From Akkermansia sp. (GTDB lineage Bacteria; Verrucomicrobiota; Verrucomicrobiia; Verrucomicrobiales; Akkermansiaceae), in NCBI GenBank assembly GCA_017521405.1, contig JAFXCP010000027.1, forward strand, positions 1 through 64,000: a stretch of 64,000 nucleotides of DNA. Reading direction: 5' to 3'. The translations under genes and the position numbers were made by a program. Below, in pieces: positions 1-34,258 of the stretch (position 1 is its first letter; each line of letters begins with the position of its first letter). The notes under the pieces were generated by a model. The model saw nothing but the letters and a program-made list of their open reading frames with translations. It made no database searches and was not told where the DNA came from.

Positions 1-260
1 AAATCCGAAAGCGTACGCGCCCGCCTATCCTTGCGCGCCTCCAGCGCCTCCTCCACCGCCCGCTCAAAGCTCACCGTCCGCTCCTGCTGCTCCAGCGCCG
101 CCGCCCCCGCCGCCACACACCTCCGCGCCCGCCCCGGCTTCCCCCTCCCCGCCTCCAGTGCCATTTTCGCCAGCAGCGCCGCCTCCAGCACATCCACCCC
201 CGTACTCCGCAGCAGCTCCAGCGCCGCCGCCTCTTTCTTGTTCACCTTCATCTTCTTCAT
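1..260 (-). CDS. Probable tyrosine recombinase/integrase, N-terminal part (cut by window edge)
   Basis: The minus strand is open from an ATG at 260 to the left edge of the window (86 codons), starting MKKMKVNKKEAAALELL. The translation is helical and charged. It contains a segment (TVSFERAVEEALEARKDRRA followed by RTLSDF) that resembles the N-terminal core-binding (SAM-like) part of phage-type integrases, where a helix of this sort precedes the catalytic domain. The catalytic R-H-R-Y residues would lie outside the window, so the call is an inference. It is strengthened by the 16-bp inverted repeats starting 18 bp upstream of this ORF, the arrangement seen where a recombinase flips a neighbouring promoter. 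It could instead be another DNA-binding protein. Confidence 0.5.
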   Translation of the reverse strand, partial: MKKMKVNKKEAAALELLRSTGVDVLEAALLAKMALEAGRGKPGRARRCVAAGAAALEQQERTVSFERAVEEALEARKDRRARTLSD

Positions 261-277
261 ACGCTCCAGTCTACCCT

Positions 278-293
278 GCGGTTTCTAAAACCG
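278..293 (+). repeat. Left arm of 16-bp inverted repeat (putative recombination site)
   Basis: The sequence GCGGTTTCTAAAACCG is repeated exactly in inverted orientation at 436-451. The arm is itself a near-palindrome: CGGTTT and AAACCG flank a 3-bp centre, as expected of a site bound by two tyrosine recombinase protomers. It lies between the start of the probable recombinase (260) and the segment that would invert. Confidence 0.75.
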
Positions 294-435
294 TAGTCAA
301 GCACGAAAGATGGGAAAAATCAACATTGAGATGTAAGAGAGTTATATTTTTCATCTATGGGCAATATATGTCACATGGGCTTTGAAAAAGAAAATGCAAG
401 CTGAGGTGTACCTGAGTGTTAGAAAAGAATTCTTG

Positions 436-451
436 CGGTTTTAGAAACCGC
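436..451 (-). repeat. Right arm of 16-bp inverted repeat (putative recombination site)
   Basis: The sequence CGGTTTTAGAAACCGC is the exact reverse complement of 278-293. It lies 94 bp upstream of the MBOAT start codon and directly abuts a -10-like TATCAT at 452-457. Confidence 0.75.
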
Positions 452-545
452 TATCATCGGGCTGCTGTGCAGGGTTATGAATTCTTAGAGTGATATAGCT
501 CATCGATTATAGGAATATATATGTAAATAATTACGAAATACTCTT

Positions 546-1877
546 ATGCTGTTTACTTCTTTTGAATTCTTAGTATTTTATCTCGTATTGTATGCATTGG
601 TCTACCTGATGAACAGGTATGATAAGGTTTTCATTCGAAATTTCCTTTTATTGGTAGGGTCGTATTTTTTTTATGGTAATTTACACGAGTGGTATCCTTT
701 ATTGTTGTTATATGTAACTGTTGTGGGGTATGTAGCCGGGAAGGTTCTGGAAAGGTTTTCTTCGCATCGCAAGGCGGTGGCTGGTGTAAGTATAGGGGTT
801 TCTCTTTGCCCATTGTTTTTTTTCAAATACGCACCGCTTTTAAATGAAAGCATATGGTTGCCTGTGGGGCTTTCATTCTTTACGCTCCAATCTCTTACTT
901 ATATATGGGATTGCTATCGTCGGAAGATAGAGAAATCGTTTGGCTTGCTGGATGTGGCGTTGTTTGTGGCTTTTTTCCCCACGTTGCTCTCAGGTCCTAT
1001 CGAGCGTGCGCGGAATTTAATTCCCCAGTTGCAACGTGGGTTCACCTACAAATGGTGTAATATTGTATCTGGTGTGCAGATATTTATATGGGGTGCTTTC
1101 AAGAAATTGGTGATTGCGGATAATTTGGGGCAAATTGTAGATGTAACATATACGGATTTAGAGACGGCTGGTGGATTAAATTTGGCGTTGGCCGCACTGC
1201 TCTATGCAATTCAAATATACGCCGATTTTAGCGGATATGCTAGTATGGCAGTGGGGATAGGACGTAGTTTTGGTATTCAATTGACTGATAATTTTAATTT
1301 CCCCTATTTTGCGGGGACGATTAAGGAATTTTGGAAACGTTGGCATATTTCTCTTACCAGCTGGTTTACAGAATATGTGTACATTTCTATGGGGGGGAAT
1401 CGTTGTAGTAAATGGCGCTGGATGATAAATATCTATACTGTGTTTTTGTTGAGTGGTATATGGCATGGTGCTACATGGGCCTTTGTGATATGGGGTGCCA
1501 TGCATGGCATGATGTATTTGCTGGAGCGAGCAGTAAGTGATAAGCTGACACATACGATTTTGTATCGTGTGGTGATGCTGATGGGGGTGGTTACAGCTTG
1601 GATTTTTTTCCGAATTCCTCATTCGGGAGATGCATGGTATGTGGTGAAATGTATTTTTGCAGGGCCATGGTTGCCTTTTACGGCTATGGGGCAATTGCCA
1701 TTTAGTTTTGTGGGGACAATATGTTTAGCAATTTTATTCCTTATATTGGAGCTAATGTTGTATCACAAGTGCTATCCCAAGGGAATAGTGTGGCATTGGT
1801 TTGGTTTTGCTCTACTTATTTGTCTAATTGCAATATTTGCGATTCCAGACAATAAATTTGTGTATTTTAATTTTTAA
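546..1877 (+). CDS. MBOAT family membrane O-acyltransferase (AlgI/DltB-like)
   Basis: This 443-residue polytopic membrane protein probably moves acetyl groups across the inner membrane for O-acetylation of a surface or exported polysaccharide. MBOAT hallmarks are visible: DFSGYASMAVGIGR, the FWKRWHISLTSWF motif, and GIWHGATW with the presumed catalytic His307. Its length is close to that of AlgI-type proteins. It is followed after 14 bp by an SGNH-type partner, which fits an AlgI/AlgJ-like or DltB/DltD-like pair. The start ATG has no Shine-Dalgarno sequence. The gene is much richer in A+T than the dcw operon next to it, which suggests acquisition. Expression probably depends on the invertible promoter at 278-457. 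The target glycan cannot be read from the sequence. Confidence 0.85.
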   Translation: MLFTSFEFLVFYLVLYALVYLMNRYDKVFIRNFLLLVGSYFFYGNLHEWYPLLLLYVTVVGYVAGKVLERFSSHRKAVAGVSIGVSLCPLFFFKYAPLLNESIWLPVGLSFFTLQSLTYIWDCYRRKIEKSFGLLDVALFVAFFPTLLSGPIERARNLIPQLQRGFTYKWCNIVSGVQIFIWGAFKKLVIADNLGQIVDVTYTDLETAGGLNLALAALLYAIQIYADFSGYASMAVGIGRSFGIQLTDNFNFPYFAGTIKEFWKRWHISLTSWFTEYVYISMGGNRCSKWRWMINIYTVFLLSGIWHGATWAFVIWGAMHGMMYLLERAVSDKLTHTILYRVVMLMGVVTAWIFFRIPHSGDAWYVVKCIFAGPWLPFTAMGQLPFSFVGTICLAILFLILELMLYHKCYPKGIVWHWFGFALLICLIAIFAIPDNKFVYFNF

Positions 1878-1891
1878 TCTGAATATAATTC

Positions 1892-2773
1892 ATGAAGAGA
1901 TATATAGGTTGTATACTAGGCTTCCTTTTGATTTTATTCTGTACGGACTATTTGATTGACCGGGTTCTCTATTATGGGCTGGAGCGCTATTATGGAATGA
2001 GGAAGGATGCAGAGTTACTGATTGTTAGTAACTCGTATCTTGAGAGTGGGCTGGATTCCGATGCACTTGAGGAGGCCACGAATCTTTCTACTGCAAAGTA
2101 TACGGTGTCTGGCACAAGTTTTCCGACTCGCTGTGCCATGCTTGCTCATTTTATGAGCCACCAGAGTAATGCCGGGGTGAAGTATGTGCTATTCTGCTCT
2201 GACATTTTTATGCTGACTCAAAAGGAGATTAGTATGAATGAGCACGTACATTTTTATCCATTTTTGGATGCACCCGTGATGAGAGAGTATCTTTCACAGT
2301 TCGATACACCATTGAACATGGTGAAACATACTTTGCTTCGTTCGACTCGTTATACGATACTTTCTTTATATTATTCCCTCCGTGGGTATTTGAATGATAC
2401 CAACTCATATATTGATGATGTTGCAAGTATCGAGTTGTGGAACGCAAAGCCAAATTATTCTACAACTCTCAACGAGAATAATATGAAGCATTTGAAGGAA
2501 ATGGCTTTACAATATGCACAGGCGGGCGTGAAATTCATCCTAGTGACCCCACCCACCAATCCACAATATCTTCGTCATTATTCAACTACCTGCGATAGTA
2601 TATACAAATTCTATAGAGAGTTGGCAGGTTTGCATCCTAATATCGTTTATCTAGATTACACAGAACTTGCTCGCCGAGAGTTGTTTTTCGATCGTGCTCA
2701 TCTAAATAACTCAGGGCGTACGATGTTAACGACGCGCTTAGCTGAGGATTTGAATTATTTGCTAATCAAATAG
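1892..2773 (+). CDS. SGNH/AlgX-J-like or DltD-like partner of the MBOAT protein
   Basis: This 293-residue protein has an N-terminal hydrophobic segment (about residues 5-19), so it is probably anchored in the inner membrane with the rest in the periplasm. A block-I-like motif with S46-N-S48 (SNSYLESGLD) and a C-terminal FDRAHLN motif (Asp267, His270) suggest an SGNH-hydrolase-like Ser-His-Asp site, as in AlgX, AlgJ and DltD, which complete acyl transfer started by an MBOAT partner. Which serine is catalytic is uncertain. It sits 14 bp after the MBOAT gene, shares its low GC, and ends 48 bp from the convergent GH36 gene. The family assignment comes from motifs and context only. Confidence 0.65.
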   Translation: MKRYIGCILGFLLILFCTDYLIDRVLYYGLERYYGMRKDAELLIVSNSYLESGLDSDALEEATNLSTAKYTVSGTSFPTRCAMLAHFMSHQSNAGVKYVLFCSDIFMLTQKEISMNEHVHFYPFLDAPVMREYLSQFDTPLNMVKHTLLRSTRYTILSLYYSLRGYLNDTNSYIDDVASIELWNAKPNYSTTLNENNMKHLKEMALQYAQAGVKFILVTPPTNPQYLRHYSTTCDSIYKFYRELAGLHPNIVYLDYTELARRELFFDRAHLNNSGRTMLTTRLAEDLNYLLIK

Positions 2774-30649: not shown

Positions 30650-31763
30650 TTATTGGTTGGCATTATGGCGGAGCATGGCCTCGATGTAACCATCGATATT
30701 GCCATCCATCACGTCCTGAATGTTGCCGGATTCGAAACCGGTACGCAGGTCTTTCACCATTTGGTAGGGCTGGAATACATAGGAGCGGATTTGGTTGCCC
30801 CAAGCAATATCGCCCTTTTCGGAGTATTGGCGGTCGGCTTCGGCGCGTTTGCGGTCTTCCTCCAGCTGGATGAGGCGTGCCTTGAGCATGCGCATGGCTT
30901 CCTCTCGGTTGCGGAGCTGGGAGCGCTGGGTCTGGCAGGCTACAATGATACCTGTGGGAAGGTGGGTAAGGCGCACTGCGGTTTCCACCTTATTCACGTT
31001 TTGACCGCCCTTACCGCCGGAGCGGTAAGTATCCATTTTCACATCGGCCTCTTTTACTTCGATTTCTATATCGTCGGAAATATCGGGGGTGGCATCCAGA
31101 GAGCAGAAGGAGGTATGGCGTTTGCCGGCGGAATCGAAGGGACTCATGCGCACCAAACGGTGGATGCCGCGCTCGTTCTTCAGGTAGCCGTAAGCATATT
31201 CACCATCAATCTTAATCGTTACGGAACGAATGCCGGCCTCATCGCCATCCGTGCTTTCCATAATTTCCGTGGTAAAACCATGGCGCTCGCAGTAGCGCAG
31301 GTACATACGCAGCAGCATGCTTGCCCAGTCGCATGCTTCCGTGCCACCGGCGCCTGCATGGATGGTCACGTAGCAGCCGGCATCATCGTGGGCACCGTTG
31401 AGCAGAGTGAGCAGCTCGAACTCTTCCAGACGCTTCACCCACGCATCGTATTCGCTCTTAGCCTCCGCAGCCATATCCGGCTCTTCGGAGGCCATTTCGA
31501 GAGCCACCTCCACATCCTCCAATCCGCTTTCCAGAGCGCGGTATTGCTCCAGGCGGCGTTTGAGGGGGTTCACCTCATTCATCAGGGTGCGGGCGGCTTC
31601 CGGGTTATCCCAGAAATCCGGGGCACTCATGCGGGCATCCAGCTCCGCCACTTTTTCTTCCAGTGCTGCGAGGTCAAAGATAGCTCCCGAGCTCGGAAAG
31701 ACGGGAGCGCATGGCTTCCGTGTCGAGCGCCGAGAGATCGATATTGGTCGTCTGGTTCTCCAT
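30650..31763 (-). CDS. prfB: Peptide chain release factor 2, with programmed +1 frameshift
   Basis: RF2 releases peptides at UGA and UAA. The coding sequence needs a +1 shift: a first frame from ATG 31763 ([18 protein letters not shown]) reaches an in-frame TGA at 31676-31674, and the second frame continues with [16 protein letters not shown] to 30650. RF2 motifs are present: SPF (RMSPFDSAG) for stop-codon recognition and GGQ ([13 protein letters not shown]) for hydrolysis. The promoter at 31774-31802 lies 10 nt before the ATG. It is followed by trmD. The shift site is given separately. Confidence 0.95.
31670..31689 (-). promoter_or_regulatory. RF2 programmed frameshift site
   Basis: On the minus strand CGGGAGCTATCTTTGACC contains the slippery CTT-TGA-C (CTT 31679-31677, TGA 31676-31674) preceded by a Shine-Dalgarno-like GGGAG at the usual distance. 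This matches the known autoregulatory prfB element, where low RF2 at the UGA lets the ribosome shift +1 to GAC. Confidence 0.93.
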
Positions 31764-31773
31764 AACGGGCGGG

Positions 31774-31802
31774 AGTATACAGACAAATGGCTGCATTGTC
31801 AA
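31774..31802 (-). promoter_or_regulatory. prfB promoter, near-leaderless
   Basis: A perfect TTGACA (31802-31797) lies 17 bp from TATACT (31779-31774). The -10 box ends 10 nt before the prfB ATG (31763), so the leader would be about 3 nt. This is the strongest promoter match in the window. Confidence 0.75.
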
Positions 31803-33004: not shown

Positions 33005-34258
33005 TTAGTCCACGTAGCGCTTGACGATGAGGGAAGCGTTGTGACCACCGAAACCGAAGGAGTTGCTCAGTGCCACATCCACTTTCATGGCGCGTCCCAC
33101 ATTCGGGCATACGTCCAAATCGCATTCGGGGTCCTGGTTAAACACGTTGATGGTGGGCGGTACGAAGTTATCCTGAATCGCCTTCACGCAGGCCAGCAGC
33201 TCAATAGCACCGGCGGCGCCGAGTAAGTGCCCCGTCATGGACTTGGTGGAGCTTACCACCAGACCATTCTTGGCGTATTCGCCAAAGCTCTTCTTAATGG
33301 CTTTTGTTTCGCAGATATCGCCCAAGGGGGTGGAGGTGCCGTGGGTGTTGATGTACTGCACGTCCGTGGGCTTGAGTCCGGCGTGAGCCAGGGCCATATC
33401 CATACAGCGGCTGGCACCTTCGCCATCCGGCATGGGGGAGGTGAGGTGGTAGGCATCGGCGCTCAGCCCATAGCCCACCAGCTCTGCCAGAATGTTGGCA
33501 CCACGGGCCTTAGCATGCTCCAGTTCCTCCAGAATGATGATGCCGGCACCTTCTGCCATCACGAAACCATCGCGGTCCACATCGTAGGGGCGGGAAGCGG
33601 TGGCGGGGTCATCATTGCGGGTGGAGAGAGCCTTCATGTTAGCAAAGCCGGCAATGCCCACGGGCAGAATGGCAGCCTCTGCACCGCCGCAAATCATCAC
33701 ATCCGCATCGCCGAACTTCATGATGCGCCATGCCTCGCCAATGCAGTGGTTTGCTGTGGCGCAGGCGGTGGAAATGCTCATGTTCGGGCCTCCGAAGCCG
33801 TGTTCGATGCTCACCATGCCGGAGGCCATGTTCGTAATCATGTAGGGGATGCAGAAGGGGCTCACACGGCGGGGACCGGACTGCAGCAGGGCGGCACAGC
33901 CATCGCCGTGAATTCCCAAACCGCCGATGCCGGAGCCAATCATTACGCCCACGCGGGTCTTATCCACCTTCTCCAAATCCAGACCGGAGTTTTCCAGAGC
34001 CTCATCCACGGCTCCCATGGTAAGCTGTTCGAAGCGGTCGCATCGGCGTACGGACTTGGGGTCTTTCTTAAAGTGAGGTGCCGGGTCGTAACCGCGCACC
34101 TCGCCGGCAATGTGGATGCTCAGCGCGCTGGAATCGATATTCCGAATTTCGGCGATACCGGAGCGCCCGTTCTTCATGCCCTCCCAAGTCTCCTCCACAC
34201 TGTTGCCAAGAGGAGAGAGGGCACCCATACCGGTAATGACAATGCGACGTTCTTTCAT
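33005..34258 (-). CDS. fabF: Beta-ketoacyl-ACP synthase II FabF
   Basis: FabF condenses malonyl-ACP with acyl-ACP in fatty acid elongation. The 417-residue thiolase-fold enzyme has the nucleophile Cys166 (ISTACATANH), and the two active-site histidines in NTHGTSTPLGD and KSMTGHLLGAAG, followed by NSFGFGGHN. No acpP gene is adjacent. It has its own near-leaderless promoter and may be co-transcribed with the membrane protein gene and recR downstream. Confidence 0.97.
   Translation of the reverse strand: MKERRIVITGMGALSPLGNSVEETWEGMKNGRSGIAEIRNIDSSALSIHIAGEVRGYDPAPHFKKDPKSVRRCDRFEQLTMGAVDEALENSGLDLEKVDKTRVGVMIGSGIGGLGIHGDGCAALLQSGPRRVSPFCIPYMITNMASGMVSIEHGFGGPNMSISTACATANHCIGEAWRIMKFGDADVMICGGAEAAILPVGIAGFANMKALSTRNDDPATASRPYDVDRDGFVMAEGAGIIILEELEHAKARGANILAELVGYGLSADAYHLTSPMPDGEGASRCMDMALAHAGLKPTDVQYINTHGTSTPLGDICETKAIKKSFGEYAKNGLVVSSTKSMTGHLLGAAGAIELLACVKAIQDNFVPPTINVFNQDPECDLDVCPNVGRAMKVDVALSNSFGFGGHNASLIVKRYVD

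Follow-up and report, generated by a model that had tools for sequence, protein, structure and literature searches.

A short element near the left end of the Akkermansia DNA analysed here (a stretch of 64 kb, in the following the window) is, as judged by sequence comparison, very probably a phase-variation switch whose promoter is split across the recombination site. We suggest that the switch works as follows. A tyrosine recombinase from the adjoining gene, or a related copy encoded elsewhere in the genome, would invert a 142-bp segment at the two arms of an inverted repeat. The segment would carry the -35 element alone, at one of its edges, and the -10 element would keep its place between the arm and the target gene. 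In the ON form the recombination site would serve as the 17-bp spacer of an assembled sigma-70-type promoter; in the OFF form the -35 element would face the recombinase gene, the side without a -10. By this rule the window should represent the OFF form. That this copy flips, and that the assembled hexamers are a promoter, we infer from the comparisons below.

The element in the window

The window starts at base 1 of contig C22, one of the 38 contigs of a genome of 1.985 Mb. The 16-bp inverted repeat that a sequence-only reading had described is exact in all 16 letters, with 142 bp between the arms. Its left arm, on the recombinase side, occupies positions 278..293 (plus strand, GCGGTTT-CTA-AAACCG), and five more copies of the same element exist elsewhere in the genome; the right arm, on the target side, occupies 436..451 (plus strand) and would become the spacer once the segment (294..435) is flipped. 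Throughout the 64 kb it is the sole exact inverted repeat of at least 14 bp with 60-400 bp between the arms. In 100 simulations of first-order Markov sequences, the mean chance expectation was 0.11 for such 14-mers and 0.01 for 16-mers.

Both hexamers lie where the earlier reading had placed them. TTGACT is read leftward from 300 to 295 (minus strand, 295..300), at the inner edge of the segment and facing the recombinase gene, and TATCAT follows directly outside the right arm at 452..457 (plus strand). Inversion would separate them by exactly 17 bp, made up of 1 bp and the 16-bp arm, and the junction would have 10 of the 12 consensus letters. As the segment now lies, the 17-bp partners are AGGGTA on the left and ATTCTT on the right, again as proposed. 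A scan of positions 200-700 revealed neither a rightward sigma-70-like site between 452 and the ATG at 546 nor a terminator-like site. From TATCAT to this ATG the leader measures 88 nt.

The reading had further claimed that the -35 context equals that of prfB and fabF. Indeed, GCTTGAC with TAnnnT at 17 bp is present upstream of the minus-strand ORF 33005-34258 and also at the start of the minus-strand ORF 30650-31786, where the ATG just past this site is a likelier start than the listed one. From their translations we take the two ORFs to be fabF and prfB.

Other regulatory devices were also considered. The segment of the window contains two weak promoter matches (9 of 12 letters), one per strand. 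An attenuator or terminator in the segment was rejected, as the scan gave none. RNA folding of either segment strand or of the leader did not improve on shuffled sequences (z = 0.28, -0.76 and 0.89).

Copies in the same genome

The element is present in at least six related copies in its own genome, the others being located on contigs C30, C27, C21, C11 and C10; a DNA search of 59 genomes detected it in its own genome only. All segments were compared over 138-140 bp, each turned so that its target gene follows on the right. The segments of C27, C30 and C21 then match the window at 130, 127 and 124 positions, respectively, if inverted, and at only 69-75 positions if compared directly. For C10 there are 95 matches inverted against 70 direct. 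The C11 segment gives 95 matches direct against 72 inverted and so has the same orientation as the window. On the gene side the junctions read TTGACT-17-TATCAT in C27, TTGACG-17-TAGTCT in C21 and TTGACT-17-TAGTAT in C10. These three copies would therefore be ON by the same rule, having a -35/-10 pair at 17 bp before the gene.

The proteins encoded downstream of the copies begin with MRLHLP or MKLHLP; the one of C11 matches the POMP repeat weakly and also contains a PEP-CTERM motif. The C30 copy has the same gene start on both flanks, and its contig ends 38 bp past the match. At this right end of C30 (L002, about 1501-1719) both outer flanks carry the same -10 as well as the same gene start. 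Here a single -35 element may toggle two divergent Pmp-like genes, or the arrangement may be an assembly artefact of the contig end.

The recombinase

The open reading frame next to the left arm (3..260, minus strand), which had been called a probable recombinase, corresponds to the 5' end of a tyrosine recombinase gene, and its ATG is 17 bp from the arm. Since the window and C22 share their first base, only 86 aa of the gene are included. This fragment, an N-terminal part only, gave no Pfam match; it is 97% identical to the C11 copy. Contig C11 in turn overlaps the end of C31 by 135 bp, and C31 carries the catalytic part (287 aa), which matches PF00589. At six further contig ends we found recombinase 3' parts which are 92-94% identical. 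It follows that there are several related recombinase copies and that the assembly lacks some of the 5' ends. Seven 3' parts are end-cut in this manner, with the ends of C20, C21, C31, C32, C37 and C38 among the sites. As each 3' part is cut by a contig end, the genome seems to contain more recombinase-inverton cassettes than the assembly shows.

The catalytic set of the tyrosine recombinases (R, K, R, H and the nucleophile Y) is present in the aligned relatives: R154, K181, R240 and Y273 are invariant in all 16 aligned recombinases and H263 is nearly so. The first histidine of the HxxR box is an aspartate (D237) in all 16 sequences. XerA, an XerC-like protein, IntI4 and XerD are the solved relatives according to profile comparison. 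Matches to the recombinase occur in at least 76 of 77 genomes of the genus, the source genome included, and among the best 80 of 101 matches the named relatives all come from Akkermansia or Akkermansiaceae MAGs, which points to Akkermansia as the source of the window.

The switch could be real and nevertheless locked OFF in this strain, with an adjacent recombinase that is broken or silent. Next to the C10 and C21 copies the recombinase 5' fragments appear degraded; at C27 one arm has diverged and the sequence inspected contains no recombinase, and the recombinase copy of the window is cut by the contig end. We regard a locked switch as unlikely, though well worth keeping in mind: the fragment in the window is open over all 86 codons and very close to the C11 copy, and copies such as those represented by the six 3' parts could act in trans.

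Recombinase-linked loci in related species

We fetched the best 80 of the 101 recombinase matches together with their surroundings (L069-L148). In 64 of these 80 loci a repeat pair is found just 5' of the recombinase gene; the other 16 were dropped because the repeat was absent or misplaced or the sequence too short. With the arms placed automatically, 50 of the 64 loci had a TAnnnT beyond the target-side arm, spaced 16-18 bp from the -35, and 2 had one beyond the recombinase-side arm. When the -35 was used to set the register of the arms, 53 loci remained, the 11 dropped ones (L141 and L145 among them) having a -35 at neither or at both edges. In this registered set TAnnnT stands outside the target-side arm in 50 of 53 loci and in none outside the recombinase-side arm. 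Counting only the 49 loci that are non-redundant by flank, the numbers are 46 and 0. The -35-like hexamer at one inner edge likewise recurs in the relatives, both in the linked loci and in the A. muciniphila pairs described below. The proposal of a -35 and a -10 separated by the recombination site is supported by these loci of related species, and less fully by A. muciniphila (see below).

The sequences of recombinase and arms co-vary across the 53 loci (rho = 0.66, reached in 0 of 1000 permutations, phylogeny not removed). The same test with poorly registered arms (60 loci) gave a rho of 0.31.

By the split-promoter rule 50 of the registered loci are assembled OFF and 3 ON, a skew which may mean that the recombinase-linked switches flip rarely. 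The pairs of A. muciniphila are distributed about half and half (12 to 11).

The first in-frame ATG of the recombinase is only 4-9 nt away from the arm in 50 of the 62 loci which have one, and this leaves little room for a -10 on the recombinase side. Complete promoters inside the segments were counted in 60 loci: 10 have the same direction and 19 the opposite one, against 17 in single-letter shuffles, which served as control. A complete internal promoter driving the recombinase, being not enriched above these shuffles, was rejected. On the other side of the element many linked loci have no more than 40 nt between the arm and the start of the target ORF, compared with the 88-nt leader of the window.

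The loci L141 and L145, from two rabbit-gut MAGs, form a natural inversion pair. Both 17-bp arms are identical, as are the 60 bp next to the arm towards the target gene; the flanks are 97% and 96% alike over 150 bp. The inner segments (155 and 156 bp) are 97% identical solely when one of them is inverted. Over 600 bp the similarity of the flanks drops to 404 and 539 identities. The L141 form has TTGCAT 17 bp from TAAACT before the target gene. Paralogues in both orientations within one genome and this orthologous pair together support the earlier claim that the segment is invertible.

The same pair decides about a different origin of the repeats. The six related copies in one genome could suggest a small MITE-like mobile element with terminal inverted repeats that has settled before several genes and undergoes no programmed inversion. 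The flanks of L141 and L145 are, however, nearly identical around a segment present in both orientations, and for this reason we rejected it. Its position just 5' of the recombinase gene in 64 of 80 linked loci and the one-sided -10 in the flanks argue in the same direction, so that a mobile element without programmed inversion is hardly credible.

Beside another inverton of a rabbit Akkermansia (L138:2989-4560) lies a gene which by eye resembles a type I restriction-modification methyltransferase subunit; DNA methylation may thus be phase-variable at L138.

Repeat pairs in a presumed A. muciniphila genome

We also searched genome G059, presumably the type strain of A. muciniphila, for the palindromic motif CGGATTNNNAATCCG. 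If one mismatch is allowed, at least 100 matches are present, each site being counted on both strands, and the reversed control has 0. From the matches listed we picked 39 repeat pairs by hand, using the repeat alone (L280-L318). A strong -35 is seen at exactly one inner edge in 29 of the 39 pairs, at both edges in 1 and at none in 9. Similarly, TA stands directly outside the arm at one end in 29 pairs, at neither in 10 and at both in 0. The 29 pairs with a single -35 comprise 12 in which the TA shares its end, 11 in which it is at the opposite end and 6 without an outside TA. A one-sided -35 with a TA at either the same or the opposite end is expected if the -35 moves and its partner element stays in place.

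The hexamer at the TA ends is TAnnnT in only 6 of 29 cases, and 17 of 29 have A at the sixth place; pair L302, which is out of register, was kept for the -35 and TA-end count and dropped from the hexamer count. An earlier set, partly picked by a pattern requiring TTGAC and TA, had given TAnnnT in 5 of 27 pairs. Thus, of the split promoter the one-sided TA is conserved in A. muciniphila and the full TAnnnT is not. The outside TA could represent a degenerate -10, or be of a different nature. The prevailing TAnnnA differs from the TAnnnT of the linked loci, and another -10 preference or another role is possible.

We further inspected 23 invertons of G059 with TA at one end, a set biased by the fact that its loci come partly from the pattern requiring TTGAC and TA, a bias from which the 39 pairs are free. 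On the TA side 19 of them have an ORF of at least 100 aa beginning no more than 100 nt away, against 4 on the other side. With a limit of 300 nt the counts are 20 and 14.

These data bear on the question whether TTGAC and TA could be accessory bases of the recombinase site, with the true promoters being elsewhere. Both motifs are placed directly at the arms, and G059 keeps the TA and not the rest of a sigma-70 -10, position 6 being T in the 6 of 29 cases given above. Yet each motif is found mostly at one end although both ends must recombine, and in the linked loci the full TAnnnT at 16-18 bp is present in 50 of 53 cases. Moreover, the TA side more often faces a near gene start, and complete internal promoters are not enriched. 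We therefore consider accessory bases an improbable explanation and prefer the split promoter.

A lax regular-expression scan found a repeat pair (1 mismatch in 15) upstream of a wza-type gene in G059, which is taken here as the published cps1 inverton (PMC13343947). It has TTGACA inside and TAATTA outside toward wza, so that the split-promoter rule predicts cps1 to be OFF as assembled in G059. At the published coordinates 2092093-2092283 no such repeat exists in G059. There is one at 2094059-2094248, upstream of an autotransporter, and it may, although this is unproven, be the published element under other numbering.

In G059 the two arms of a pair have complementary central triplets (three bases), which differ between many pairs, some triplets being shared. 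It looks as if the central triplets could act as an address which keeps different invertons from recombining with each other.

Target genes

The presumed target of the switch in the window is an MBOAT acyltransferase gene (546..1877, plus strand). Its product matches PF03062 with an E-value of 2.3e-22 and 80.2 bits against a curated cut-off of 27. It falls short of the DltB equivalog TIGR04091 of NCBIfam (153.4 bits against a cut-off of 375). After 14 bp follows, in the same presumed operon, a gene for a probable acyl-transfer partner (1892..2773, plus strand), called DltD/AlgX-like from its position and from GDSL-like motifs recognised by eye. Its product matches no Pfam family, and the one NCBIfam match is far below the cut-off. 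It is presumably an SGNH-like partner of the MBOAT protein, and the pair would modify a surface polymer. For the earlier claim of a surface O-acetylation cassette the support is the MBOAT match, together with a partner gene whose product matches no Pfam family.

Upstream of the MBOAT orthologues of other species (L182-L186) the inverted repeat was not found, and therefore the switch appears to be an addition at the locus of the window. For the orthologue L187 the scan began at another ORF, and the C17 paralogue was read by eye alone.

For a broader view we surveyed 62 arm-adjoining proteins, namely those of 60 linked loci (of 61, the distal ORF of L109 being omitted), the MBOAT protein of the window and the C11 protein. 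The Pfam families found are Chlam_PMP repeats (12), PEP-CTERM (9), ankyrin repeats (6), Acyl_transf_3 (5) and MBOAT (2). Surface and PEP-CTERM genes beside such arms are therefore found across the set; the window's own target is an MBOAT and not a PEP-CTERM gene.

Relation to known systems

Jiang et al. reportedly published a repeat and a promoter motif of Akkermansia in 2019. The repeat motif is quoted as CGGATT..AATCCG (Jiang et al. 2019, as cited in PMC13343947). For Akkermansia invertons both orientations have been documented by reads and PCR (inverton group 138, PMC11892184; cps1 switch, PMC13343947), and so the existence of these invertons and their flipping is already published. In the passages that describe them they resemble the element of the window in having paired palindromic-type repeats, a short segment and a place beside surface genes including those for PEP-CTERM proteins. 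The arm of the window (CGGTTT-TAG-AAACCG) agrees with the published motif in 10 of 12 letters, one base being off per half. Unlike the published invertons, as these passages present them, the window has a recombinase gene directly alongside. The split of -35 and -10 seen here is not stated in them. The text passages covered, including those of PMC13343947, PMC11892184, PMC9241678 and PMC8278651, describe no inverton with the -35 inside and the -10 outside; the layout may already be in print, for example in Jiang et al. (2019). In PMC11892184 motifs were sought in the inverton sequences including the repeats, and according to its text the Akkermansia promoter motif was below the significance cut-off. 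This may be due to a -10 located outside the sequence searched.

The invertible promoters of the Bacteroides type are likewise short intergenic inversions that toggle surface genes and have invertase genes nearby (in part from PMC11892184). As described there, their promoter motif is inside the segment, whereas in the window the -35 alone is inside. A complete promoter inside the segment characterises neither the 60 linked loci nor the window.

In Mycoplasma penetrans multiple promoter inversions are located before paralogous surface proteins of one genome. The many short promoter inversions are a likeness to the present system; to our knowledge no promoter split across the site is known from this organism. 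Circular insertion sequences have junction promoters in which recombination joins a -35 and a -10 across the junction, just as proposed here. These promoters serve the transposition of a mobile element, whereas the system of the window would be a reversible gene switch.

Implications

We lean towards the view, with somewhat more in its favour than against it, that phase-variable promoters across Akkermansia are split by design, the -35 moving with the segment, the -10 staying outside one arm and the recombination site lying between them as the spacer. If this is true, the DNA used by RNA polymerase in the ON state would also be the recombinase site, and competition between the two proteins would provide a feedback inherent in the design. 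For dozens of loci the sequence of any assembly would suffice to tell ON from OFF, and a simple sequence rule would tell which gene an Akkermansia inverton controls. A search limited to the inverton itself would overlook the -10. Finally, an acylation gene pair and proteins with Pmp repeats of the chlamydial type would join the likely phase-variable surface of Akkermansia, a gut genus under wide study.
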